Virus record (IMG/VR): IMGVR_UViG_3300017963_000105
Span: 1 to 44,374 of that record
Strand: one strand, 5' to 3'
Origin: a virus
DNA length: 44,374 bases
Within the stretch, counting starts at the first letter, position 1. Every line of letters begins with the position of its first letter. Below are positions 1 through 44,374 of the stretch, piece by piece. Position numbers and translations under genes: made by a program. The notes beneath the pieces were generated by a model that ran no database searches, had not been told where the DNA came from, and worked only from the letters and a program-made list of their open reading frames with translations.

Positions 1-89
1 ACACATCACACAAGCCTGTACACACAGAGGCATGTGCGAACATGAGGCAACTTGGCTCAATCGAAGCTAGACTCGCAGTCACGTTCTAG
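1..89 (+). CDS. 3' end of the small joint-spanning gene (partial)
   Basis: This is the C-terminal part of the 55-residue protein that starts at 44173. The frame is open from base 1 and stops at TAG 87-89. See the entry at 44173-44340 for the full gene. It appears here only because the circular sequence was opened inside the gene. Confidence 0.6.
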   Translation, partial: TSHKPVHTEACANMRQLGSIEARLAVTF

Positions 90-123
90 GCACACACAAG
101 CGTAGGTGGGTGTACGCTCACCT
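1..123. repeat. Left copy of 123-bp terminal redundancy
   Basis: These bases are identical to 44252-44374. A small gene begins at 44173 and reads into the right copy, and its last codons fall in positions 1-89 here. The simplest reading is that the molecule was assembled as a circle (circularly permuted or circular replicative form) and opened at an arbitrary point. A physical direct terminal repeat of 123 bp is possible but less likely, because the boundary cuts a gene and a hairpin. Confidence 0.95.
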
Positions 124-3964: not shown

Positions 3965-4173
3965 TGTGGTGGTTTGAACTACGGCAAAGTAGACAATCTA
4001 CTTTGTATGTATGTGATAGCCACAGAGATTTGCAGGATGCAATCGCATACAAAGCCAGTGAGCTTGGAGTAAAGACTGAAGAATTTATAAGCAACGTTAC
4101 TAATGTTGAAATACTCAAGGGAGGTGTGGTAGATGAAGGTCGCTTATGTAAAGAAACGCCCAGATACGCTTAG
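3916..4173 (+). CDS. Small hypothetical protein
   Basis: An 85-residue frame with a weak GAGGG site (3905-3909). The sequence looks like a small alpha/beta protein (AIVWWFELRQ strand, then ELGVKTEEFISNVTNVEIL). It overlaps the start of the amidoligase gene by 41 bases, so the last 13 residues are out of frame with that gene. Function unknown. Confidence 0.5.
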   Translation: MFNKTLSEALKGSNAIVWWFELRQSRQSTLYVCDSHRDLQDAIAYKASELGVKTEEFISNVTNVEILKGGVVDEGRLCKETPRYA

Positions 4174-5902
4174 CCAGGAGCAGCTAGACGAATTCACCCA
4201 TAAGTTTCTTGTTAGTGGCTCATGTGGTATAGAGTTAGAAGGAACTTCACCAGAGTATGTTCCTTATGAAGAGGTGTGTAACTTTGATAGGGCTGCATGT
4301 GGAGTGTGTCATCCTTCTGTATGCCCAGAGTGTAGGGATTGTAACGTACATCGTGGAATGGATTGCCCACACTACCTATGTGAGAATTACTGTGAGTTAG
4401 TGCAGTATTTTTCTAACGCACACCCACTTGTAACCCTTGAGTATGAGGTTGTACAGAGATACTTCGCTGATATGAGTCGTGCCGATATCAGAGATATTTG
4501 TAGGTCTTGTGACGTCTGTAACCATTGTCACATAAGGAATTGTGCAGATTGTACTGTGTGCGACACATGTGAATCAGGGGCTAGGGGTCGTGGACAAACA
4601 AAACCAGTCTTAAAAGCAATAGCAGAGGAATTGGGTATAATCTGCGGTAAGATATATGATACCTCCAACCTAAAGTTTAACAGTAATTGGCTTTATGTTT
4701 ACAATGATGGTAGTGTTAACACAGAACTGGTGACTGCTCCTATTCAGTTATATAGGGTTGGTGACGTAGTAAAAGAAGGGTTGGATATCTTCAATCGGTA
4801 TGAAGTTAAAGCATACCCAGCACAAGATTGTAGGGCTGGGGCACATCAGACATTTAGCTTTGATGGAGTATTCCCAGACATAGTAGCACGTAATATCGTT
4901 CAATTGATTAGGTATTATCTACCAGCGTTACTGGCAATCGGTTGCTACCACTTTGGAACACATTTTCGTGGTAAATACCGCATCCTTCCAGAGAATCCAA
5001 GCTGGGGTGATAGATGTGAGGTATTCAATACCAAGTATGAGGCTTGCCACGTTAAAGGCCAACTAGCTCTTGAGTATAAGCCAAGACTAATTGAGTTTAG
5101 GTACCCTGACATGACACCAAGATGGAAGCAACACGAACTAGTTTGTTTAATAAACGCAGCACTATTGTTAGAAGCAGGAAAGCTCTCCAAATCAGGTGTT
5201 GTTAGTTTTCATAACTATCACTGGGAATATGTGCAAGAGACAACTCGTCAGATATATGAACTTGGAGCATTTGACGGTGGTTGTGGAGAGTTACGCAATG
5301 AGATGTTGACGTACCTAGCAGATTCAATAAAGCTAATGGTATCAAATGCTTCGGAGATATTAGATGTGGTATCCCATTGGTCTGTGCCACCTCTAGATTC
5401 GGTCGTAGATAGGTTACCTAAGATTGAGTGGATACATACTCAACCCTATGAGAGAGAAGATAAGGCCGAAGGGGTTTCGTTACCGTCAGTTGAATGGATA
5501 CCAGATAACGGCACAGCGGAAGCAGCACAAATAGAATTCTTACCGTTTGAGGCTCCTGTGAGGCACCCAAGTCAAGCCTACACTACAGAACCACAAGAAT
5601 CGGGATTTTCTGTATCGGTACAAGCAGATGAAGCCCTGCCTCTAAGTCACGGCTCAGAAAGTATTGTTTCATCGGTATCAGGTCAGTTTATTATACTACG
5701 TGAAGGGCTTGCATCTCACCATTGGCATTTGTTGATGGCTATGTTAGAGGATATGGGGGAACACGCAATAGACGATTCATACTATGGTATCTTTGCAGTT
5801 CGTAATGTTACAGAAACGGAAGGTTTTATAGCATTTGATTTACGGGCTGTTAGTCGTACAGCCAGACCATCGGCTGAATTTACATTATCATACAGGCTTT
5901 GA
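4133..5902 (+). CDS. Amidoligase-like enzyme (glutamine synthetase fold) with cysteine-rich insert
   Basis: 589 residues, GGGAGG at 4119-4124. The core carries the signatures of the putative amidoligase family: CGIELEG (31-37, metal/ATP acidic pair), NDGSVNTELVTAPI (191-204), GAHQTFSFDG (236-245) and RLIEFRYPD (318-326). These ligases join carboxylate and amine groups using ATP. Between the first and second motif lie two dense cysteine clusters (about residues 49-87 and 123-146, many CxxC), likely several zinc ions. In GAHQTF the second His common in the family (GxHxH) is Thr, so activity is not assured. Residues 420-589 are Ser/Glu-rich and end in a small folded domain. The next gene is a class II glutamine amidotransferase, the classic partner. 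Substrate unknown; a peptide or cell-wall modification is the family-based guess. Confidence 0.75.
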   Translation: MKVAYVKKRPDTLSQEQLDEFTHKFLVSGSCGIELEGTSPEYVPYEEVCNFDRAACGVCHPSVCPECRDCNVHRGMDCPHYLCENYCELVQYFSNAHPLVTLEYEVVQRYFADMSRADIRDICRSCDVCNHCHIRNCADCTVCDTCESGARGRGQTKPVLKAIAEELGIICGKIYDTSNLKFNSNWLYVYNDGSVNTELVTAPIQLYRVGDVVKEGLDIFNRYEVKAYPAQDCRAGAHQTFSFDGVFPDIVARNIVQLIRYYLPALLAIGCYHFGTHFRGKYRILPENPSWGDRCEVFNTKYEACHVKGQLALEYKPRLIEFRYPDMTPRWKQHELVCLINAALLLEAGKLSKSGVVSFHNYHWEYVQETTRQIYELGAFDGGCGELRNEMLTYLADSIKLMVSNASEILDVVSHWSVPPLDSVVDRLPKIEWIHTQPYEREDKAEGVSLPSVEWIPDNGTAEAAQIEFLPFEAPVRHPSQAYTTEPQESGFSVSVQADEALPLSHGSESIVSSVSGQFIILREGLASHHWHLLMAMLEDMGEHAIDDSYYGIFAVRNVTETEGFIAFDLRAVSRTARPSAEFTLSYRL

Positions 5903-5916
5903 TACAGGAGGTATTC

Positions 5917-6960
5917 ATGTGCGGTTTAATTGGTGGCTATGCTCTGCACCCACAGAGGGTAAAAGGTCACGTTTTGAATATATACGAAAAGCAGAAAACA
6001 CGTGGTACTCAGGGGTATGGGGTTGGTGTGCGTAAACGTGATGGCTCTATGTATCGTGTTAGAGGTAGAGTAAAGGAAGATGTGTTTAATTCTGATATAT
6101 GGAGCTATATAGAGAGTGGGGATTACTTTATCTTTCATCATAGATACCCAACTTCAACGCCCAATGAACCTGAGTGCAACCACCCCATTTGTAACGAAGA
6201 TGGAACTCTTATGTTAGCGCATAATGGTGTGTTATCTGATGCAAAAGAAGAACGTGATGACCACGTGTATGAGACAGAGATACTTAGCACCCATGTGATA
6301 CTGTCGTCTGATAGGAAAATAGGTTATACCTCTTGTGTAACTGATAGCGAGTTTGCTGTTCACTACCTAGAGGAGCTAGTAGATAACAATGAGTTTGAGG
6401 ATGCCCTGAAGAAACTTGGTGAAGCCTATGGTGCTTCTGCATATTTACTTCTGATGTCAGAATTTGATGGTTTGATTTATGTCGGTAAAAACCACCCGTT
6501 ATGGTTCTATAGATACGGTGGTAATTATTATATGAGTTCACTTAAAACCATCATTACCTCCGATAAATACCTCAAGGATAACTGTGTAGATTTAGACCCT
6601 GCTTATGGTTGGTTATGTGGGAGGGAATTACACAGAGTCCATAGACCCTGGGATGTTACGTACACCCCATCGAATCGTGTCTCAGACTCCTACACTGAGT
6701 GGAATAAAGCGAGAGAAAAAGGAGAGACAAACCAACCTTACACAGTGTGGCTCCAGGAACGTAATACCCAGGTTAAGCAGTTACCACCTGCGAACAATAA
6801 CGAGACATTTGTAAGGTTTTTACCTGATGATGTATCGCTACAAGACCACTTGAAGAAGTATCCCAATTGTCATGGGCGGTGTGACGATTGCCGTGAATAC
6901 CATTGTTATAATAACCCTGCATCTTGGGGTGCTGAAGAGTTTGGATTCTTTTCTTGTTAG
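5917..6960 (+). CDS. Class II glutamine amidotransferase (Ntn-hydrolase fold)
   Basis: 347 residues, starting at the ATG after AGGAGG (5906-5911); an earlier in-frame start at 5899 would bury the nucleophile. Cys2 in MCGLIGG is the N-terminal nucleophile after Met removal. TRGTQGYGVGV, HHRYPTSTPN and AHNGVL are the glutamine-pocket and oxyanion motifs of the GlmS/PurF-type domain, and TDSEFAVHYLEEL is the usual distal motif. No synthase domain follows; the C-terminus ends in a short cluster (CHGRCDDCREYHC) that may bind zinc. It would release ammonia from glutamine for a partner enzyme, most likely the amidoligase directly upstream, 14 bases away in the same operon. Confidence 0.85.
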   Translation: MCGLIGGYALHPQRVKGHVLNIYEKQKTRGTQGYGVGVRKRDGSMYRVRGRVKEDVFNSDIWSYIESGDYFIFHHRYPTSTPNEPECNHPICNEDGTLMLAHNGVLSDAKEERDDHVYETEILSTHVILSSDRKIGYTSCVTDSEFAVHYLEELVDNNEFEDALKKLGEAYGASAYLLLMSEFDGLIYVGKNHPLWFYRYGGNYYMSSLKTIITSDKYLKDNCVDLDPAYGWLCGRELHRVHRPWDVTYTPSNRVSDSYTEWNKAREKGETNQPYTVWLQERNTQVKQLPPANNNETFVRFLPDDVSLQDHLKKYPNCHGRCDDCREYHCYNNPASWGAEEFGFFSC

Positions 6961-7444: not shown

Positions 7445-8228
7445 TCTATTCACTGTAGAGGAACTCTTAGACTGGACACCACCTAAGCAAGACTGGATTA
7501 TACCAGACTTACTCATACCAGAGGGTAAGATGGCTGTGGTGGGTTCCAAGAAGAGCTTTAAGTCTATGTTGATTAGTGTAGACTTGGCATTCCGTATAGC
7601 TATGGGCGATAGATGGTTGGGTTTACAAACACATAAGAGTAGGGTGTTTGTACTACAGGTGGAGATACCACAGATGGCGTTACAAACTAGGGTACGTAAG
7701 TGGATTGTAGGGCATGGGCTACCTGAACCCCCACCTAACCTATACTATTGGACTACACGATGTAAACTAGACCGTAACCATGACTATCAAAAAGTATTAT
7801 CTCAATTGCAGAAGGTACAACCAGATGTACTCATATTAGATTGTCTATATAGGCTTATGAGTGGTAACGTTAATGATAACTCAGACATGGGTAGATTCCT
7901 AGACCACATAGAGCTACTACAGGAGAGCGTGAAGGGTTTAGCTGTTATACTAATTCACCATAAGGGTAAGACACTGTTCACTGAGGAGGGTATACCAATA
8001 GATAGAGGTACTGAGTCATCGCTTGGTGCATCTACACTCAACAACTGGTATGACAGTCATGTTGGAGTGGAGCGATTAAGCGAGAGGGAATTAGTGAGAG
8101 TGAGCTTTGAGGATTTAAGATTAGCACCTGATGACTTGGTACCCTTAGACCTAGTATATAACAAACACACCATCGACTTTAGTGTGTTAAATGAAGACCT
8201 AAAGGTAGGTACTATAGAGGAGGAATAA
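7434..8228 (+). CDS. RepA-like RecA-fold ATPase (replicative helicase candidate)
   Basis: 264 residues, GTG start after GAGGT (7421-7425). Walker A is VGSKKSFKS (residues 36-44), the KK-variant seen in the AAA_25/RepA group of hexameric helicases, and Walker B is DVLILDCLYRL (131-141). VILIHHKGK, shortly downstream, matches the sensor/HH region typical of these proteins. The N-terminus lacks a primase domain. With the nearby SSB-like gene and family A polymerase it probably serves as the replisome helicase or loader. A recombination ATPase is the alternative, but a better candidate for that lies at 12258. Confidence 0.8.
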   Translation: MEGNLFTVEELLDWTPPKQDWIIPDLLIPEGKMAVVGSKKSFKSMLISVDLAFRIAMGDRWLGLQTHKSRVFVLQVEIPQMALQTRVRKWIVGHGLPEPPPNLYYWTTRCKLDRNHDYQKVLSQLQKVQPDVLILDCLYRLMSGNVNDNSDMGRFLDHIELLQESVKGLAVILIHHKGKTLFTEEGIPIDRGTESSLGASTLNNWYDSHVGVERLSERELVRVSFEDLRLAPDDLVPLDLVYNKHTIDFSVLNEDLKVGTIEEE

Positions 8229-8581
8229 TGCGGGAAATAATAAAAACAACAAATAAGGTCGTATACTTGGAGGATTGTATATGCTGTGGTGAGGAGTTTA
8301 AAACGAGAAAGAACTCTAAAAAAGACATATGTGATAAGTGCCAGGAAACCCTAGAGTCGTGGAAAGTTGCCCAAGACGATATAGAGTTTGCTGACCACGC
8401 TTTAAAGGTACTGACAGGTGCCACTATAACGGAAATTAATGCTACGTGTAAGTTAAACCGTTGGGGGTACGATTCCGCTATTAATTATGTTTCCTTACTT
8501 GACACAGATGGAAACTTATGGAAGTTGGAAGTATGTACCGACTTAACAGAGCTTTGGCAACTCATGTATAAAGTTAAATGA
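8228..8581 (+). CDS. Small protein with N-terminal zinc ribbon
   Basis: 117 residues, GAGGAGG at 8217-8223; the start overlaps the helicase stop by one base. CICCGEEFKTRKNSKKDICDKC (about residues 17-38) is a C-x2-C...C-x2-C ribbon with a basic loop, followed by a helix and a beta-rich domain ending in GNLWKLEVCTDLTELW. Its position after the helicase suggests a replication accessory role, not proven. Confidence 0.65.
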   Translation: MREIIKTTNKVVYLEDCICCGEEFKTRKNSKKDICDKCQETLESWKVAQDDIEFADHALKVLTGATITEINATCKLNRWGYDSAINYVSLLDTDGNLWKLEVCTDLTELWQLMYKVK

Positions 8582-9892: not shown

Positions 9893-10225
9893 ATGGACTG
9901 TCTGATGTGTAATGGTGATGGCGTCACAGAAGTAACTTGTCCCACGTGCGGAAACTCGGAAGAGGTCGTGGAGTGCCCCAGATGTGAGGGTGCTGGAGAA
10001 GAGAAGCGGTATGTAATCCCGCTTAAGACTGCCAAGTCGTATCTCCAAACTCACAAGGCTGATAGAGGTGAGTTCCTTAAGCTCGCTTGCATCGGTAAGT
10101 TTGACCCTGACTACAACCAGTTGGGAAGAAACTTTGCTAGCTACCTACAGCGTAACTGCCCCATCGCATACGTCCAGGGAGTGCTGGCAAAGTTGGAGAA
10201 GATGGCCATAGACGGTCGTCTTTAA
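9893..10225 (+). CDS. DnaJ-type zinc-finger protein
   Basis: 110 residues, AAAGGAGG at 9880-9887. The first 35 residues contain CLMCNGDG, CPTCGN and CPRCEGAG, that is CxxCxGxG repeats like the DnaJ zinc-finger domain. The remainder is helical and basic (KTAKSYLQTHKADRGEFLKL), without a J-domain. Such proteins bind zinc and may act on nucleic acid or as redox/chaperone adaptors. It directly precedes the structured RNA candidate. Confidence 0.75.
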   Translation: MDCLMCNGDGVTEVTCPTCGNSEEVVECPRCEGAGEEKRYVIPLKTAKSYLQTHKADRGEFLKLACIGKFDPDYNQLGRNFASYLQRNCPIAYVQGVLAKLEKMAIDGRL

Positions 10226-13986: not shown

Positions 13987-14166
13987 ATGTATATAGAAGA
14001 GATAAAGGCTAAGGTAGAAGAGAGCCTTGATATGGATGGTTTTTGGGTACGGGTGATGATACAACTAAATGGTCTTGACTATTGGTTGGTTATGGAAAGA
14101 TTCGTGGATAACTTCAACCCTCTAGGGTTAACAAAATTAAGGAGGTATGATGGAGACAGAACTTGA
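13987..14166 (+). CDS. Small hypothetical protein
   Basis: 59 residues, starting after AGGAG (13977-13981); the longer frame from 13933 has no site. A helical start (IEEIKAKVEESLDMDGF), then strands. Overlaps the next gene by 17 bases. Function unknown. Confidence 0.55.
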   Translation: MYIEEIKAKVEESLDMDGFWVRVMIQLNGLDYWLVMERFVDNFNPLGLTKLRRYDGDRT

Positions 14167-14353
14167 ACTTAACGAAGGTGAAATCCTACGGTGTGACGTA
14201 TGTAAGAATAACATAACATACCCTGGCAAAGCAATTTTAGCGTTCTCACCAGAGGAAGACTTTATTGTGGAATGTGTGGAGGAAGTTTATTGCAGAGATT
14301 GTGCTGAGAGGTTTAGATGTGAGCAAGAAGATACAAGGTTTACCTATGACTAA
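14150..14353 (+). CDS. Small zinc-ribbon protein
   Basis: 67 residues with AAGGAGG at 14139-14145; of the two adjacent ATGs the second has better spacing. CDVCKNNITY and YCRDCAERFRC make a C-x2-C...C-x2-C site enclosing an acidic strand-rich middle. It lies directly before the polymerase gene. Function unknown. Confidence 0.65.
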   Translation: METELELNEGEILRCDVCKNNITYPGKAILAFSPEEDFIVECVEEVYCRDCAERFRCEQEDTRFTYD

Positions 14354-30456: not shown

Positions 30457-30552
30457 CTAACGTTTCACGTGTCTTGTGTTCTTAAGCCTACGTTCTAGTG
30501 ACTTATTTCTCTTTGCCGTCTGTCTTTCTTTACGGCTACGCTTCTTAGTCAT
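30457..30552 (-). CDS. Tiny highly basic peptide
   Basis: 31 residues (MTKKRSRKERQTAKRNKSLE then RRLKNTRHVKR), starting in the stop of the giant gene (ATGA) with AGGGG upstream. More than half of its residues are Lys or Arg. Likely nucleic-acid-binding or packaged with DNA; no family. It precedes the late promoter. Confidence 0.5.
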   Translation of the reverse strand: MTKKRSRKERQTAKRNKSLERRLKNTRHVKR

Positions 30553-33500
30553 CCTATCCCCTGGTAGGTACTTAGTAATCTTAAGTACATGGTTTCAGCT
30601 TCCTTGCTCCTGTTACTATCCACAATACCCCAGAACCTTAACCATGCGTCTAGCTCAGGGTCGTTAACACGCATGTTCTGGTGTATGTTCTTTAACTTGG
30701 TAGTAAAGTTGCTTATCAGCTTCAACCCTTCAGAATCAGTAACGTTTCTAATTTCTTCTCTTCTAGCGGAATTAGCCAGAGAGTATTCCTGTATGAGCTT
30801 ACGCTCCTCAACCGAATACGTATCTAAGAGGGCTACCCGTGTATTGTAATAGGGTCGTATATATTCTTTACTTATCCTCCAGCGAAGTCGCTTGGTATCA
30901 GTCCACTCGTATTGTAGGTTCTCTAAGAAACTTCTCTGGTTCTCTTCACTAAGTGCATTCATAATAGCATCAACACGAGCAAAGTAAGTTTCCCAATCAA
31001 TGCGCCATGTATCTAGCTCATAATCAAATGCCATCTCAGGCTTTATCTCTCTGTACTCCCAAAGGAGTTCTTGTGCTGGGTGCCATATGGGTACAGGTTC
31101 ATCTCTCTCTAAGTAGCGAGACACTCTCTCCTCACGTGTCTTAGGCACATCAGCAAACATATCGGTATCAGCTAAGGCGTTAACACGTTCAATCGTAGCC
31201 TCTACCAACTCCTCTAACATGGCATCGTATTGGGCTCCTGTGATACGACCAGCCCTAAACTCCTCTTCTAAGAACTCCTCACTTACTATGTCCTGCTTAC
31301 CAGAGTAGTCTGGAAATCCTTCTGTACGAGCCTGTTCATATATCTTACTCACTTCGTATTGATACATGATGATTCGTTCTTCCTCTTTGCGCTGCTCTGA
31401 GGGAAGTAGAGGTGCAACGAAGTTCTTATTCCACCGCTCAACTTCTTCAGCTTCAAACAGTATCTTCTGTTCCAAGGGGGATAGGGGGAACCTATCTGAA
31501 GTACGAACCCCTGTGATATCAGATAGCCTACTCTCTCGTTTCCATTGCTCTACGGGGATACCAGTGAGCTTCTCTTTAACTTCAAGAGCCATCTCATAAG
31601 CTTTATCTCTATCCTCTGGACGGAACCTAAACAGTCCCATCTGCACAAAGGGGATTTGGAGTAAAGACACTTTTCTCATGGCTTGGTCTACGAGCTTCTG
31701 TTCATCATCTGTTAGCTCTATACCCATTGACTTCTTAGCCATCACATAGTTACCATCTACCCCAAGGTCAGTGAGCTCTTGCTCTATCATGTACTCACGG
31801 AACCTATCAGACATCACTCGGTCACGTAGCCATCGAGAGGTCTCACTGGAAGGGTCTATACTCTGGTAGAAACTGAACAACGTGGTGAAAGCAGGTGGTA
31901 ATACCTCATACATCTGAGGGGCACCTACCTTAGAGCCAAAGAAAGCTAGGGGTGCAGCTATATGTACACCTGGGTAGAATCCACCCCGTGAAAACGCATC
32001 CATCACACCAGCGAATGTTCCCCACACAGGAGCATCATAGTATTCAGGATAGTCACGGATGAACATACGTCTGAATCCACCCATGAATACTGTACCACGG
32101 AAAGGATTTATGTCTATTGGCATCCCAGGTATATTAACGTACCCACCTTCTGTGTAGTCCATGAAGCGACCCATAGAGAGTGGAACACCTGGGGTGCGTA
32201 TACCAGTACGCCACAGGTACGGGTATCTACGGGATTCGTATATCCAGAATGGATAGATACCTTTCATAAAGGAATCCATCATATTCTGAGAGGTGTAGTC
32301 TGTGAAGGTAAGGTGGTATTCCTTGGTAGCAGCCTCAGCAGCAGCATCACGTTTAGCTGTCCACTCTGGGGTGGCCTCAAACCTTATCTCTGTACCTTCT
32401 CTTGGCTCCACCCATACCTCTCTCTTAGTGCGACCTGATTTCGGTAGCCAACCTTCATCTATAGCTCTCCGCTGCCAAGCTTCAAACAAACCTTCTGCAT
32501 CATCCATAAGGCTTGGGTTGACTTCTGCCAGTTCCCTTAACCTATCTGGCATGTTGGGGTAACGGTCAAATTGAGTGGATACTGTTTCATCCCCAGCAAG
32601 AACGAAGTCACTTCTCATTTCCATAGAAGGTTCAAAAGATACAGACTCAGTTTCAAGGTACTCTCTAATCCTGCTCTGTATCTTTTGCTCATATGTTAAG
32701 TCTTCCTCAACGATTCGAGGTTTCTTTAACAGATTTGTTTTGGACGGGTCTGTAATAAATTCTATTTCAACAGAAGCAAACTGCTCGTCGGGTTTTGGTG
32801 GTTTAAACTCACCCCCAAGTCTCTCCTTCACACGTATAATACCACGCCTCTCTAACTTCTCAATAAGCTGTCCTGAGAAGTTGTTCACATCCGCAACAAT
32901 CTTGTATCCTTCTGGGGTGTAGTCACGAATAATACTAAGAGCATCTCTTATAGCGGTTACTCTACTGTTTGGGTTTAACCCTAACCAACCCACGTCCATA
33001 ATCTTATAGTCGTGGAAAACGTGTAAGGAGATTTCACCTAGAGACCTCCCTGTATCATCTTTCAGGAAGAAGTGGTGGTTATCAACCTCACCCCAAACTT
33101 CTTTTATGTGTTCAGTAGTTACAGTGGTATCACCCACATCAGAGAATCTAACGTCATAGTGCTCACTCTGCTGAGCAAGCTCCATGTACTTCTTATGTTC
33201 CCTTTTGAATTCCTTACGGTTCATCTGCCAAGGGCGTTTGAACCTAAGCTCTTTCGTGTAGAATCCAGGTTGGGTTACAGGTACTTCATTCCTGAACATG
33301 GGCAGCTTCTTCATGTTATCGCTTACATCTGAGATATGCTTCTGAACACGGAAGTATTCATCTGGGTCTATTGCCTTTGTATTGTACAAACGTTCGTACT
33401 GGTTGGCAAAGTGGCGAAGCTCTTCAACAGCAGGAGTAAAGCGAGAAGCTACCTGTGGGTCTACCTGCATACCTCTCAAGATATCATCGTATACCTCACC

Positions 33501-36500
33501 AATGCGTTCCCATGAGAAACCTATCTCTGCTGGCATCTTACCCTGTTGTTTGGCTGCTTTCAAGGCTCTTTCGTATACGGTAGCCTGAAATTGGGGTTTA
33601 CCCATCATGGTGCGGGTTTCTGCAAATATAAGGTTATCCCGTATGGATTCCCCAGTGGCACCAAACAACTTTGCTATGTCATTCACTAACAATCGTTTAG
33701 TCTGAGATTGAACGTTAGGCACCACATCTTGAGCAAGGTTCAGAGCGTGCTCTGTTCGTGGTATTTGGGCTATTTGCCTCCAGTAATCATCCCAGATACG
33801 TTCACTAGCTTTGAGTGCTGCTCTCCATCCTTCCAATGTACGTGAACCTGGAGCTCTATGGGTGGATGTGTAAGCATCTATTGTAGCAAATACCCGTTCT
33901 CTCACGGTTCTCAGGTTGACAATGTATTCTTCCCAGTTGTTCATAAGGGCACGTGCTGAATCTCTCTTAGTCTTATCTGGGATTAACCTTAGACCTTGTT
34001 CTAATCTCTGTTTCATAGTGCGTGCTTGTGTCACAGCATCATCTATATACCCTAAAATTTCATCACGAGCCCCTGCATGTAACTTCTCCACTTTAGATAC
34101 TTTAACTATACGATGGCCTTTGCGGGTAACTGCTGACCAGTATTCAGTACAGGAGCGAGGTAAGATATCGTTTAATAGGGTGTCTACGTTACCAATCATC
34201 ACCATGAGTTCATCTGCTGACTGTGGCACGAAATCGTCTAATTGGGCGGTGGCCGACCTCATTAACTCCTTGTACATGTCTATCTTCATAATATAGTTGG
34301 TGTAATAGGCATCTACGGCTTCATCTACGAACTCTCTCACGTTACCACTGTTGACGTTACCAGCCCGTACCTCCTGTAATATGAAGTCTTTAATGTCTTG
34401 GTCTACAGCCCTAACTTGGTTAAGAAGCTCTTGGGTATCTTGGGTTAGCTTCTTACGTTCTAAGATACTTCTTTCCCAGTGGAGGTCATCAACATAGTTT
34501 GAACCAAGGGGTATACGGTTCTCTAATGACCTGTTAATACCATCTATATCTTTACGGGATAGAGTTTTGAAATCAGCATACTTTAGTGGCTGAGGTATAA
34601 CCTCTGCTATCATATTCATATCATCTGGGAACATTTCCCACATCTTACGCTTGTGCATTTGGATGTAGGTGTAAGCACGGTGCTGTTCACCCAAGCGGTT
34701 AAACCACTGGTTCCAGTCATACATGGATACTCTCTTACCACCTAAGAATGGTATCTCGTACTCACCTATCTTTCGTGGCACTGTGAGGGTTTTACCACCG
34801 AATGGTGCTGGGAGCCAACTTGGTAGATTAGCTGTGGTCATGAGAGGTAGTATGCCTTCACCACGAGCAGCAATACTTAACTCACCACGAGCGGGTAGCT
34901 CAAAGACTATGCTCTCAGCGAACTCATGGGGGGCATTCATTAGCTCTCTAGTGATAAGCTCTGCTTCCTCTACAATTTCTCTGCCAGCAGCAGCCTTACC
35001 CCATAAACCATATCCTGAGAAAGCGCTACGGAATAAAGACTCAAACATATTGAAGGTACCGTAGTTTGCTGTGAGTAACATCTGGCGAGCTACAGGGAGC
35101 ACGAGCCACTTCTCAATAGAGTTCCTCCAGAGTACGGTTACGGCTGAGTCTATAGAGTTTTGCATAGCAGCCATCATACCGTAACGAGAGCGGTGGGCTG
35201 CCACCTTAGAGCTCATGTTACTCACGTATGTTTCCCTCATGGTCTTGAGAAAATTTAACATTCCACTCTTGGTAGAATCAAATTCAAGGAGCTTCTCAAA
35301 TAGTGCGTATTCCCTATCTTGTACACCACGTAGGAATCTTCTTACCTGTTGCATGTTGCGCTCACTAAAATCTCCTAGGATTTGCAACATTGGCAAAACG
35401 GCATCATCTGGGGTAATAGATTTACCTACAATACCATCTATGAGTTCGTTAACCTCATGAGTTTTAGTCATGACGAACTCTTCCATCTCACGGGTGGTGT
35501 AATCTACCAATGGGTTCATATTAGATAAGAGTTCTTCTACCTCTTCCCTTGGAATGTATCTATGGATAGCATCATGTACATCCGCACCGAATTGATGCAG
35601 GTAGGTATGGCCACCCATCTGAGGCTTGTTTTGAAACGCAGAGTAGGCAGCAGTCATCGTCTCTTTTAACTGGTTTGGAGTAATACGAGCTAAATCCTGT
35701 AGGTTAGAGAACTTAGTGGTTGCTCTTAACATATTAACGGTTGCCTGTGAGGTGCGTTCCATTGCTCTCTGGAAGGTAGTTTTACCTACAGATTCCCAAC
35801 CTTTACGTAATGCTAAGAAGGGGATATCCATTGTTTCTATGAAGCCCTTCTCAGCAGCACCAACAGTTCTATGAAGCCACCCAATAGGTTTGGTTATCTT
35901 AGTGTATATATTAAATCCAAACCATGTTAGCGGGTCTCCTACTATCTCCAAGCCCAGTTTAGTTACCCAGTTTTGCTCCCAGTCATCAAAAGCATGGCCA
36001 GCAGCCATCCACCAGTTTAACCCCTCAGACATGTGTTCCCCTTGGAGTCGTTTTAGTTCTCCACTCCATGTGGTTTCACCGAATGGGCTCTTACCAGTTA
36101 ATGCTGCTACACCCCTATGAGGGTCTAAAACATTGGCTGCTATGAACGCAAAGGGTCTACCCCAGTACTCAAAATAGTTATCAAGTAATTCAACCATAGC
36201 AAGAGCAGGTTGTTTCCACGCTAACTTGAGTTGCTCCATAATAGACAGATTCAATACTTCGGGAGTTTTAAGTCCTAATCTGTAGGCTTCATAATTCTCC
36301 CGTATGTCTCGCCATTGTTCATCTAGAGTAGCCCAGTGACCACGAGCAGTTTGTATGTATTCGTCAAGATACTGGGTGTCTAAACCAGCCGTATCAAATA
36401 ACTCACGTAGTCCATCAGCACCTAAAGCCTGTAAACTACCAGTAAGCTCCAACTGTGGATAAGTAGATAAAGCTTTGAGTATCTCAGACGTTGTGGAGTC

Positions 36501-37094
36501 TTCTACGGACATTGGGTGTGCTGTTGGTCTCTCTTGGAGTAATTTAACAGCTTCGTCTAGTTGCCCAGCTTTCTTTCCAGCCACAGGAGCAAAGTTATTC
36601 CATATAGTTTGGGCAAACGTTCTAGAGGAGTCATCTAAACCCCAATACTGCATGAGTTCATCTACGTTCTCAAATATCCCAAGTTCCATGTACTGGGAGG
36701 CGTATGTTAAAGCTAAGTGACGAGCTAACGCCTGTTGTTCAGAGGCCACCGCTACATCTATTTGGGCAGCTAAGTCCTCTATTTCCTGTCGTTTCTGCTT
36801 ACGTGCTGGGTCACCCCAGTCTTTACCAAAAACGTAGGCAAATGGGTCTACATCTACACGAATTCGAAATTGAGATTGAGCAGTTCTGTACTTGTCCTCA
36901 ATAAGTTTACGGGTCTTAGTGGATTCCTGCAACTCACGATGGGTTATAGTCTTATCAATCTCAAACCCCTCGTAAGGGGAATAGGTCGTACCTGCACCCA
37001 TCAGTTCGATAGGGTGCATAAGCTTACGCCCAGCTTCTAACTCTGTTTTTACCTGTGCTCGTTCTTCAGGTGTACCTATATTAACCCCGTTCAT
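30549..37094 (-). CDS. Giant 2181-residue virion protein (internal/ejection candidate)
   Basis: The start is the ATG after TTGGAGGTGGTA; four further in-frame codons upstream carry the site itself. Encoded between portal and scaffold, where short-tailed phages often keep large internal or ejection proteins. Mostly helical, charged and Arg/Glu-rich. Around residues 1325-1430 a distinct strand-rich segment (NHHFFLKDDTGRSLGEISLH, DYKIMDVGWLGLNP, GYKIVADVNNFSGQ, LERRGII) resembles an acetyltransferase (GNAT-like) fold. The part near 1600-1730 is Gly/Pro and aromatic-rich (GGFRRMFIRDYPEYYDAP). It takes up 15 percent of the genome. Role: probably packaged in the head and delivered to the host; enzymatic activity unproven. 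Confidence 0.65.
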   Translation of the reverse strand: MNGVNIGTPEERAQVKTELEAGRKLMHPIELMGAGTTYSPYEGFEIDKTITHRELQESTKTRKLIEDKYRTAQSQFRIRVDVDPFAYVFGKDWGDPARKQKRQEIEDLAAQIDVAVASEQQALARHLALTYASQYMELGIFENVDELMQYWGLDDSSRTFAQTIWNNFAPVAGKKAGQLDEAVKLLQERPTAHPMSVEDSTTSEILKALSTYPQLELTGSLQALGADGLRELFDTAGLDTQYLDEYIQTARGHWATLDEQWRDIRENYEAYRLGLKTPEVLNLSIMEQLKLAWKQPALAMVELLDNYFEYWGRPFAFIAANVLDPHRGVAALTGKSPFGETTWSGELKRLQGEHMSEGLNWWMAAGHAFDDWEQNWVTKLGLEIVGDPLTWFGFNIYTKITKPIGWLHRTVGAAEKGFIETMDIPFLALRKGWESVGKTTFQRAMERTSQATVNMLRATTKFSNLQDLARITPNQLKETMTAAYSAFQNKPQMGGHTYLHQFGADVHDAIHRYIPREEVEELLSNMNPLVDYTTREMEEFVMTKTHEVNELIDGIVGKSITPDDAVLPMLQILGDFSERNMQQVRRFLRGVQDREYALFEKLLEFDSTKSGMLNFLKTMRETYVSNMSSKVAAHRSRYGMMAAMQNSIDSAVTVLWRNSIEKWLVLPVARQMLLTANYGTFNMFESLFRSAFSGYGLWGKAAAGREIVEEAELITRELMNAPHEFAESIVFELPARGELSIAARGEGILPLMTTANLPSWLPAPFGGKTLTVPRKIGEYEIPFLGGKRVSMYDWNQWFNRLGEQHRAYTYIQMHKRKMWEMFPDDMNMIAEVIPQPLKYADFKTLSRKDIDGINRSLENRIPLGSNYVDDLHWERSILERKKLTQDTQELLNQVRAVDQDIKDFILQEVRAGNVNSGNVREFVDEAVDAYYTNYIMKIDMYKELMRSATAQLDDFVPQSADELMVMIGNVDTLLNDILPRSCTEYWSAVTRKGHRIVKVSKVEKLHAGARDEILGYIDDAVTQARTMKQRLEQGLRLIPDKTKRDSARALMNNWEEYIVNLRTVRERVFATIDAYTSTHRAPGSRTLEGWRAALKASERIWDDYWRQIAQIPRTEHALNLAQDVVPNVQSQTKRLLVNDIAKLFGATGESIRDNLIFAETRTMMGKPQFQATVYERALKAAKQQGKMPAEIGFSWERIGEVYDDILRGMQVDPQVASRFTPAVEELRHFANQYERLYNTKAIDPDEYFRVQKHISDVSDNMKKLPMFRNEVPVTQPGFYTKELRFKRPWQMNRKEFKREHKKYMELAQQSEHYDVRFSDVGDTTVTTEHIKEVWGEVDNHHFFLKDDTGRSLGEISLHVFHDYKIMDVGWLGLNPNSRVTAIRDALSIIRDYTPEGYKIVADVNNFSGQLIEKLERRGIIRVKERLGGEFKPPKPDEQFASVEIEFITDPSKTNLLKKPRIVEEDLTYEQKIQSRIREYLETESVSFEPSMEMRSDFVLAGDETVSTQFDRYPNMPDRLRELAEVNPSLMDDAEGLFEAWQRRAIDEGWLPKSGRTKREVWVEPREGTEIRFEATPEWTAKRDAAAEAATKEYHLTFTDYTSQNMMDSFMKGIYPFWIYESRRYPYLWRTGIRTPGVPLSMGRFMDYTEGGYVNIPGMPIDINPFRGTVFMGGFRRMFIRDYPEYYDAPVWGTFAGVMDAFSRGGFYPGVHIAAPLAFFGSKVGAPQMYEVLPPAFTTLFSFYQSIDPSSETSRWLRDRVMSDRFREYMIEQELTDLGVDGNYVMAKKSMGIELTDDEQKLVDQAMRKVSLLQIPFVQMGLFRFRPEDRDKAYEMALEVKEKLTGIPVEQWKRESRLSDITGVRTSDRFPLSPLEQKILFEAEEVERWNKNFVAPLLPSEQRKEEERIIMYQYEVSKIYEQARTEGFPDYSGKQDIVSEEFLEEEFRAGRITGAQYDAMLEELVEATIERVNALADTDMFADVPKTREERVSRYLERDEPVPIWHPAQELLWEYREIKPEMAFDYELDTWRIDWETYFARVDAIMNALSEENQRSFLENLQYEWTDTKRLRWRISKEYIRPYYNTRVALLDTYSVEERKLIQEYSLANSARREEIRNVTDSEGLKLISNFTTKLKNIHQNMRVNDPELDAWLRFWGIVDSNRSKEAETMYLRLLSTYQGIG

Positions 37095-38730
37095 TACCAC
37101 CTCCAAGTGAAGGCATCATCGTAGGGTTTGGTCTTGTGCCTCTCTGTTTCTCTTCTTCGGTTACTGCTATGGCCTCTAACTGAGACAAAACAGCATCAGC
37201 AGCGATATCGTATAATTTAGCTGTCTCTTCATCGTTGCGTCTACGGGCTTCCTGTGCAGCAATACGATAGGCTCGTACTTGGTTAACGGATAGTCCAATG
37301 GCGTTGTTAAGAGCCTTAGCACTACGTACACGTCCTTGTTCTGCTAACGTGTTTTTCACCTCTGGGAAGAATAACTCCATTGTGGTCTCTGGGGATATCT
37401 CTACCGAAGGTGATATCATCTTAGCTGATGTGATGCGGTTGATTAGGTCACCTGGGATTGATATGGGGTAATCCACTACCATCTCTATATCATCAGGAAT
37501 ATTCTTAGGTAGAGTAACGCCCCTTGGTTTAATTCCCTTAGCTCTCATTTGATTCAACCACATGTTGTCTATCTCTGTTAAAACATTCATCACGGATTCA
37601 TGGTATGGTCTTAGAACCTGTTGGGCAGCCTGAGCCATCTGGGACAGGGTGTATGCAGCCACTTGGAATTGGATGTTACCAAACATCAGTGGCGAAAATG
37701 AGGCTTTCTGCTTATCTTGCTCATATGAGAAGATACGTTGTATCAACTCTGGGGGAATTGGAGGTGGCTGTAGGGCAGTGACCGAATCCCCAGGCTGCCC
37801 TCTAAAAATAGCACCAGAGTAAAAGTGCTCTGGTTTTAATATGGTAGTCCCTTGAGAGAGTTCTAACCACTTAGGTTCCGTTGATTCTTTTACGGCTTGC
37901 TGAAGGAAAGATGCCAACCTGTCAGAGTTTTTGTAGACATCTTCGTTAACGGCTACTAGAGCTTCCCCATAGTGTTCTTGCCATTTAGAGTCAACTTCAC
38001 CTAAGTCAGGTAAACCTCCTACGGCACCACATACCACAGGGATACGGTCAAACCTAGTGTCTTTGTATGGTTTTACTACAAACTTACCGTCTAAAACTAT
38101 GGTATGGGACACGTCACCGTCTTCATCAATAAACCAGTAATCGAATAACTTAACCTTCCCCACTTGCGGTAGATTAACGTTCCACTCTTGCACCTTGGCT
38201 TTCTTACGGGCTGCTGCTACAGACATTTCGTATATGTGGGCTACTTCAACAAGACCTATTTCTGGGTCTGGGGAATAGCTTTGGAATGTTTCGGCAGGGT
38301 GCCATATATCAGCATAGAAACCGCTGTTATCAGCGGTAACTTGAACGTTATACCAACCGAAGGCTAAGATTAAGCCAACTAAGTAACCAACCCAAGATTG
38401 TTTACCACTTCGTCTATAAGACTTTTCAAGTCGTTGCCAAGCTTCTTTCTCTATCTGTGCCTCCAGCTTAGAAGTAGCGTCAATCTCATTGGGTGTAAGT
38501 CCTTCTATCGGGAACTTATGCGGAATGATTGAAGGTGTTAATAAATGCTTGGCTAAGTTATAAAAGGTACGTGGGTCATTCGATACGTAGGTTTCTTTGT
38601 TCTTCTCTTCTAATTGGTCTACTAACCTTAGAACTTCGTACCATTCCTTAAACTTGCGGTTGCGGACATTCCATGACTTCTTTAGCTCTTGGCACTTAGA
38701 CATCACTTCTGAAGGTGTGAATTGTGCCAT
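37081..38730 (-). CDS. Portal protein
   Basis: 549 residues, GGGAGGAAGAAAT upstream, ATG sharing a base with the terminase stop (TAATG). Helical N-terminal part, then strand-rich wing region (GWYNVQVTADNSGFYADIW), a long stem-helix region (AAYTLSQMAQAAQQVLRPYH) and a Gln/Glu-rich C-terminus. Location directly after the large terminase and general layout fit the portal ring through which DNA enters. No diagnostic short motif exists, so the call is context plus architecture. Confidence 0.82.
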   Translation of the reverse strand: MAQFTPSEVMSKCQELKKSWNVRNRKFKEWYEVLRLVDQLEEKNKETYVSNDPRTFYNLAKHLLTPSIIPHKFPIEGLTPNEIDATSKLEAQIEKEAWQRLEKSYRRSGKQSWVGYLVGLILAFGWYNVQVTADNSGFYADIWHPAETFQSYSPDPEIGLVEVAHIYEMSVAAARKKAKVQEWNVNLPQVGKVKLFDYWFIDEDGDVSHTIVLDGKFVVKPYKDTRFDRIPVVCGAVGGLPDLGEVDSKWQEHYGEALVAVNEDVYKNSDRLASFLQQAVKESTEPKWLELSQGTTILKPEHFYSGAIFRGQPGDSVTALQPPPIPPELIQRIFSYEQDKQKASFSPLMFGNIQFQVAAYTLSQMAQAAQQVLRPYHESVMNVLTEIDNMWLNQMRAKGIKPRGVTLPKNIPDDIEMVVDYPISIPGDLINRITSAKMISPSVEISPETTMELFFPEVKNTLAEQGRVRSAKALNNAIGLSVNQVRAYRIAAQEARRRNDEETAKLYDIAADAVLSQLEAIAVTEEEKQRGTRPNPTMMPSLGGGNERG

Positions 38731-44172: not shown

Positions 44173-44340
44173 ATGGCAGCACACATCACCCACCCCTGTA
44201 AGGGGTGCAGACCGACAGCAGGGAAGCGGAAGCATACGGTCAAGTGCCCACACACATCACACAAGCCTGTACACACAGAGGCATGTGCGAACATGAGGCA
44301 ACTTGGCTCAATCGAAGCTAGACTCGCAGTCACGTTCTAG
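44173..44340 (+). CDS. Small protein spanning the joint
   Basis: 55 residues, AGGAGG at 44160-44165, about 22 bases after the predicted transcription start. MAAHITHPCKGCRPTAGKRK then CPHTSH and CANMRQL: four cysteines and several His, a likely zinc-binding knuckle with a basic N-terminal half. As first gene of the early unit beside the iterons it could be the iteron-binding regulator, but this is only proximity. Its 3' part is repeated at bases 1-89. Confidence 0.7.
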   Translation: MAAHITHPCKGCRPTAGKRKHTVKCPHTSHKPVHTEACANMRQLGSIEARLAVTF

Positions 44341-44374
44341 GCACACACAAGCGTAGGTGGGTGTACGCTCACCT
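44252..44374. repeat. Right copy of 123-bp terminal redundancy
   Basis: Identical to bases 1-123. It overlaps the 3' part of the gene at 44173 and the left arm of the hairpin at 100-127, and marks the point where the circular assembly closes. Confidence 0.95.

Follow-up and report, generated by a model that had tools for sequence, protein, structure and literature searches.

The window analysed in this study was the whole of the IMG/VR virus record IMGVR_UViG_3300017963_000105, a stretch of 44,374 bases. Two adjacent genes of this uncultured phage, at positions 4133-5902 and 5917-6960, probably specify a two-subunit enzyme that forms amides at the expense of glutamine and ATP. The first gene product is a predicted glutamine synthetase (GS)-fold ligase that would form a new branch of the amidoligases, and the second is a class II glutamine amidotransferase (GATase II).

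It was proposed that Cys2 of the 5917-6960 protein, freed as the N-terminal nucleophile, would split glutamine into glutamate and ammonia. The 4133-5902 protein, acting as a GS-fold amidoligase, would activate a carboxylate with ATP and a metal, the putative ligands being E34, E36, E198, H238 and E321 by analogy to glutamine synthetase. Ammonia would then attack the activated carboxylate, resulting in a carboxamide. The Cys-rich insert between strands 1 and 2 of the ligase is probably a zinc-stabilised module that would dock the glutaminase or guide the substrate.

Sequence features of the two genes

The features of the ligase gene were as follows; the bridge proteins named here are five phage proteins described below.

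4119..4125, plus strand: Shine-Dalgarno sequence GGGAGGT, read directly, with the ATG start at 4133
4133..5902, plus strand: predicted GS-fold amidoligase of 589 amino acids (aa), Cys-insert branch (motif order, profile bridge, operon partner)
4226..4243, plus strand: strand-1 motif GIELEG, residues 32-37 (CGIELEG, 31-37), aligned to GxExE of amidoligases and KxExE of the bridge proteins
4277..4570, plus strand: Cys-rich insert, residues 49-146, 17 Cys and 9 CxxC pairs, predicted to bind zinc; the bridge proteins are Cys-rich at the same place
4703..4741, plus strand: NDGSVNTELVTAP hairpin, residues 191-203, with D192, S194 and E198 (alignment, three-motif pattern)
4838..4852, plus strand: GAHQT, residues 236-240, H238 being the first His of GxHxH and T240 replacing the second (alignment)
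4919..4933, plus strand: LPALL, residues 263-267, common to the five bridge proteins (alignment, pattern)
5090..5110, plus strand: IEFRYPD, residues 320-326 (alignment; local match to the phiEco32 amidoligase here)

The longer forms of three motifs were NDGSVNTELVTAPI (residues 191-204), GAHQTFSFDG (236-245) and LIEFRYPD (319-326). E34 and E36 of GIELEG are predicted metal ligands, by analogy, and E321 and R323 are predicted from the sequence to be catalytic. The ligase contained 25 Cys in total, and 17 of these fell within residues 49-146, so the cysteines lie between the first motif (GIELEG) and the second (NDGSVNTELVTAP). The ligase stop at 5902 was followed, after 14 bases, by the GATase start at 5917.

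The features of the GATase gene were as follows.

5906..5911, plus strand: Shine-Dalgarno sequence AGGAGG, read directly, with the ATG start at 5917
5917..6960, plus strand: class II glutamine amidotransferase (N-terminal-nucleophile glutaminase), 347 aa (models, motifs)
6136..6156, plus strand: HHRYPTS, residues 74-80, typical of amidoligase-linked GATases (alignments)
6220..6228, plus strand: HNG, residues 102-104, oxyanion hole (invariant in alignments)
6340..6351, plus strand: TDSE, residues 142-145, glutamine-binding Asp (D143, S144 and E145 invariant)
6868..6906, plus strand: Cys cluster CHGRCDDCREYHC in the C-terminal tail, a possible zinc site (read directly)

The protein also carried Cys2 and RG-x-x-G (residues 29-33). 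The Met-Cys start, the RG, the H-x-R region, HNG and DSE were all present and were invariant across eight GATases. The GATase matched the glutaminase domain of GlmS/PurF models (PRK00331, 6e-10, that domain alone; purF, 8e-8), phrog_13807, and Pfam GATase_6 with an E value of 7.8e-5 and 23.1 bits, below the cut-off of 27. No synthase domain was detectable in the GATase. Cys-rich C-terminal tails were also present in the GATases of loci L031, L035 and L063.

An earlier note on this DNA had described both genes, and its coordinates, lengths and motifs were exact: its roughly two dozen cysteines correspond to the 25 that were counted, 17 of them in the insert between the motifs, and the GATase II begins 14 bases on with the N-terminal Cys, HNG and TDSE and without a synthase domain, all as claimed.

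Pairing of the ligase with the amidotransferase

The signature of this GATase group was HHR(Y/F)PTSTPN. Its DNA pattern was found in five IMG/VR phages, and an amidoligase lay directly upstream of the GATase in 5/5; the amidoligases of the four that were scanned (L015, L016, L018 and L019) were PF12224 members. A wider scan, seeded by GATases only, yielded 29 loci with 31 GATase genes, 30 of which had upstream sequence. A predicted GS-fold ligase was located directly upstream in 30/30 decidable GATases, with gaps of -13 to 67 bases; since some loci repeat the same virus, these 30 cases are not all independent.

In L120 (2381-3985) and L125 (2443-3963), COOH-NH2 ligases (PF14395) were placed directly upstream of the GATase II, replacing the amidoligase. 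Double ligase-GATase pairs were recorded in L015/L020 and L024. Two GATase matches in the phage collection, L001 (MT835488.1) and L002 (OR846890.1), were rejected as PurF-/GlmS-like proteins among bacterial housekeeping genes. Both records resembled a bacterial chromosome, with phosphoglycerate mutase, purF-, purB- and enolase-like as well as glmS- and glmM-like genes.

The pairing bears on another function of the ligase, which might couple an amine carried by an amino acid, a peptide or a sugar, instead of free ammonia, to the carboxylate, while the GATase would serve a separate step or provide ammonia for a metabolite precursor. Such a system would be the cassette that has been proposed to modify peptides or the cell wall in phiEco32 and the RIO-1/HP1-like podoviruses. 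The known cassettes do pair these enzymes with ATP-grasp enzymes, COOH-NH2 ligases and gamma-glutamyl cyclotransferase, and two loci of the same ligase branch as the window (L109 and L121) have an ATP-grasp gene downstream. A peptidoglycan modification cassette acting against superinfection has been named as their hypothetical role (PMC5498523; repeated in PMC10580990). This cell-wall role is without experimental support, and no paper was found showing what amidoligase-glutaminase pairs make. Moreover, a six-frame hidden Markov model (HMM) search of the window, a genome closed by a 123-bp repeat, gave no match to ATP-grasp, COOH-NH2 ligase or gamma-glutamyl cyclotransferase. The GATase was also directly behind one predicted ligase in every decidable case, the COOH-NH2 type included, and direct delivery of ammonia is therefore favoured. 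Joining of an amino group was considered rather unlikely for the window.

Further, the Cys-rich modules were compared in a non-redundant set of amidoligases found by an amidoligase query (L020-L103), where proteins with 12 or more Cys were taken as Cys-rich. A GATase II was present within 4.5 kb of 19/25 Cys-rich amidoligases and of 9/42 Cys-poor ones (Fisher P 2.4e-5). Hence, the Cys module appears linked to the GATase partner, which suggests that the predicted zinc module deals with the glutaminase. The Cys-rich part preceded strand 1 in most Cys-rich amidoligases; among the proteins read, it was placed inside, after strand 1, only in the window ligase and the five bridge proteins.

Tandem arrays of a large N-terminally Cys-rich amidoligase, a GATase II and a second Cys-rich amidoligase were observed in L031, L034, L036, L051 and L063. 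The amidoligases of L032 (1152-2870) and L033 (2526-4244) carried an extra domain of ~170 residues before the Cys-rich segment.

The Cys-insert branch

The bridge proteins were found through the search seeded with the GATase, not with the ligase, in five metagenomic phages.

L109:2316-4001, L121:2512-3972, L128:2645-3979, L129:2718-3986 and L131:2686-3984: bridge proteins, unannotated (upstream of the GATase, with the layout of the window ligase)

Neither the amidoligase HMM nor Pfam recognised any of the five. In order, they contained KxExE, an insert rich in Cys, D-x-S/T-V-x-x-E, AG(M/F)H with I/L-S/A after it, either LPA(L/M) or MPA(L/M), and L/I-E-F/Y-R, with a GATase II lying -1 to 67 bases downstream. 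The window ligase had the same architecture at ~20% identity: the Cys-rich segment is inserted between strand 1 and DxS, the second His is missing, LPA(L/M) is present and the GATase II gene follows directly. It differed in its insert, which was of a plain CxxC type, whereas those of the bridge proteins were DnaJ-type CxxCxGxG inserts with weak matches in Pfam, and in its longer C-terminal part.

By hhalign, the five bridge proteins matched 43 amidoligases at 93% with an E value of 3.2e-7 over 141 columns, from DGS to E-x-R; profile comparison of the bridge set with COOH-NH2 ligases gave no match. The bridge profile scored 43.0 against the window ligase over 140 collinear columns, with maxima of 25.0 for 169 shuffled sequences and 33.8 for 151 decoys, the top decoys being Cys-rich GATases of the tandem loci. 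The ordinary amidoligase profile scored 27.5 against the window ligase (maxima of 25.0 for 200 shuffles and 24.6 for 200 decoys). A core HMM of the five proteins gave 8.8 bits for the window core, a score reached by 0/5,000 shuffles and 0/655 decoys.

Both histidines of GxHxH were kept in 112/112 distinct canonical amidoligases. The second was lost in 6/6 members of the Cys-insert branch: T takes its place in the window, and S or A in the bridge proteins. Since all six share this loss, the change is a mark of the branch and not peculiar to the window. In glutamine synthetase, the second His contacts ATP. It was concluded from the sequence comparisons that the ligase fits best into a new branch of the wider amidoligase superfamily for which Pfam, PHROGs and NCBIfam have no model; the markers of the branch are the insert, the missing second His of GxHxH and the LPA(L/M) motif.

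The same loss, together with the half of the protein that lies outside the core and the strong divergence of the core itself, would also fit a ligase-like protein that is not an enzyme. Such a protein could bind zinc and serve the glutaminase as a scaffold or regulator, the pair only raising free ammonia or glutamate during infection. However, both strand-1 Glu residues, D-x-S/T, the hairpin Glu, the first His and E-x-R were kept in 6/6 members. As the catalytic-type residues persist in all six, a dead enzyme is unlikely, and the scaffold was regarded as improbable.

It was tentatively proposed that the six proteins are a separate family, a possibility that we would not yet call probable. Their zinc module in the first hairpin might dock a stand-alone glutaminase or channel its ammonia, the nucleotide site might be reworked in the absence of the second His, and an amidated product could be made by two proteins.

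Direct searches for the ligase and their controls

Relatives of the ligase were found neither by tblastn among 50,697 phage records nor by a peptide-pattern scan of IMG/VR. PF12224 (Amidoligase_2, curated cut-off of 22 bits) showed no match to the ligase at E values up to 1 and no match in a search of the window genome, while the relatives in L015-L031 scored 41-103 bits on this model. Residues G32, E34, E36, D192, S194 and E198 nevertheless aligned to invariant or nearly invariant PF12224 columns, and the C-terminal strand (I/V)E(F/Y/I)R was present as IEFR (residues 320-323). The ligase departed from PF12224 in two respects, the model cut-off and the second His of GxHxH.

HMMs built from 49-111 ordinary amidoligases scored the ligase at ~3 bits or less, and with a subgroup amidoligase HMM ~7% of shuffles scored as high as the ligase. 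An early hhalign comparison of the lone ligase with 8 amidoligases or 5 COOH-NH2 ligases gave no signal. A DNA-pattern scan for IEFRYPD returned one protein, which was unrelated and was rejected. In MAFFT alignments, the ligase motifs lined up with invariant columns of 68-71 amidoligases. The count of invariant residues in the alignment (9/16 for the ligase, 3-12 for shuffles) was dropped as evidence because shuffled sequences reach similar counts.

The four ligase motifs, in order and with the family spacing, were matched by 0/200,000 shuffles and 0/593 other open reading frames (ORFs), although this pattern was written after viewing the window. When three motifs were defined from the five bridge proteins alone, the resulting pattern fitted the window and all five, and occurred in 0/200,000 shuffles and 0/2,945 ORFs.

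The lack of direct significant homology and the failure of the residue count to separate the ligase from shuffles would be expected of an unrelated Cys-rich phage protein whose amidoligase-like motifs arose by chance. The profile bridge with its empirical controls and the ordered motifs speak against this, as does the place of the gene immediately before a GATase of the kind linked to amidoligases. Chance resemblance was accordingly given little credence, somewhat less than the scaffold.

Structure prediction and weighing of the proposal

AlphaFold, supplied with 68 relatives as an alignment, gave a mean predicted local distance difference test (pLDDT) score of 54 and a predicted template modelling (pTM) score of 0.51. 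Strands 30-37, 187-190, 197-201, 237-242, 305-308 and 319-323, with helices, followed the amidoligase order; the best blocks reached a pLDDT of 75-89, and the Cys insert stayed below 50. A Foldseek search against BFVD gave no nameable significant match (top E value of 7e-4, unnamed). Residues 515-575 were predicted as a C-terminal strand-helix-strand-strand unit apart from the core. The many weak PDB matches of ~55 columns noted with this unit were protein kinases, with E values of about 0.5.

Several results weigh against an amide-forming ligase-glutaminase pair. The 4133-5902 protein had no match among the Pfam, PHROG and NCBIfam models, its full-length sequence HMM scores were not significant, and it is without a His that is universally conserved. 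AlphaFold without an alignment gave a pLDDT of 33, so that the model leans on the supplied relatives, and Foldseek against the PDB gave no match below 1e-3, with glutamine synthetase at rank 7 (E value of 0.67). In the GATase tree, the window was placed on a very long branch apart from the bridge GATases. Finally, no result identifies the ligase substrate; the chemical class is predictable, the target is not. Because the confident core depended on the alignment and no PDB match was significant, the GS-like fold of the ligase is called no more than plausible.

The amide-forming pair nevertheless remains the preferred interpretation. The likeliest guess for the amidated acid, made with low confidence, is a cell-wall peptide or a peptide tag. 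The earlier note had taken the ligase for an amidoligase beside a GATase II, and this held by profile comparison through the bridging clade and failed by direct homology search. It had also called the protein an unusual member for its Cys-rich insert and lost second His, which is now extended to five other phage proteins. Its statement that the amidoligase-GATase II pair is known is right for phiEco32 and the LUZ24-like phages. The refuting condition it had set, that the two genes never co-occur in related phages, did not hold: the decidable GATases all followed a predicted GS-fold ligase. Its idea of a product made during infection on the envelope, a phage protein or nucleotides is still unsupported speculation.

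Genome context

The window carried a perfect direct repeat of 123 bases at its ends.

1..123, no strand assigned: direct terminal repeat, left copy (repeat comparison)
44252..44374, no strand assigned: direct terminal repeat, right copy (repeat comparison)

On account of this repeat, the window probably represents an entire genome, assembled from one end to the other. The only relative of the phage itself was the near-identical 25.7-kb contig IMGVR_UViG_3300017971_002929 (L003 and L004; IMG metagenome 3300017971), whose terminase and major head protein were 99-100% identical to those of the window. This contig probably represents the same virus, assembled a second time.

The ligase and GATase genes sit in the early/replication block, with helicase-like, exonuclease, polymerase and dCMP deaminase genes as neighbours. 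This location would suit an anti-restriction role in which the pair makes a nucleotide or DNA base bearing an amide. This is the least credible of the alternatives, as no TET/JBP, hydroxymethylase or deazaguanine synthesis genes were present among the genes scanned (not every gene was scanned) and no direct link emerged from a literature search on amidoligases and DNA hypermodification.

Other observations concerned the rest of the window. A 198-aa protein (1850-2446) contained an S-adenosylmethionine (SAM)-methyltransferase-like motif (LFLDVGCGIGNIMLYAESLG), with weak DOT1 and Methyltransf_31 matches at best. Small Cys-rich, zinc-finger-like ORFs were located in the early region at 2461-2829, 8228-8581, 9893-10225 and 14147-14353. 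A 2185-aa protein was encoded on the minus strand (30549-37106) within the structural block.

Comparison with known systems

The founding prediction for amidoligase systems is reportedly that of Iyer et al. 2009. Amidoligase relatives are widespread, being contained in >300/50,697 phage records. The PF12224 phage amidoligases, such as phiEco32 gp84, LUZ24 gp18 and UFV-P2 ORF23, resemble the window ligase in the order GxExE, DxS, E, GxH and E-x-R. They also adjoin or lie near a class II GATase, and many relatives have Cys-rich segments. The window ligase differs in that it scores below PF12224, is without the second His and has LPA instead of the central-helix Glu. Its Cys-rich segment lies between strands 1 and 2, whereas that of the PF12224 amidoligases lies before strand 1. 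The window adds a branch beyond the Pfam, PHROGs and NCBIfam models, supplies a motif for finding more members, and raises the testable idea that Cys-rich modules in phage ligases accompany a glutaminase partner.

The Staphylococcus MurT/GatD system of peptidoglycan amidation (PMC3267633) is similar in outline, with a separate glutaminase and an ATP-dependent ligase subunit. No homology is claimed, as MurT is a Mur-ligase relative and GatD is a class I-type amidotransferase, unlike the window proteins.

The known cassettes (phiEco32, UFV-P2, PA11, CVT22, HP1, HSd1 and tf) comprise a GATase II, a COOH-NH2 ligase, an amidoligase and an ATP-grasp or RimK-like enzyme, and many add a gamma-glutamyl cyclotransferase. 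The phiEco32/LUZ24-like/RIO-1-like cassettes share with the window an early-region pairing of a synthase-free GATase II with a predicted GS-fold ligase. The window has the pair only, the other three enzymes of these cassettes not being found in its closed genome. This probably complete 44-kb genome, with only these two genes of the cassette, would represent a minimal case, in which the product could be traced without ATP-grasp, COOH-NH2 ligase and cyclotransferase steps.

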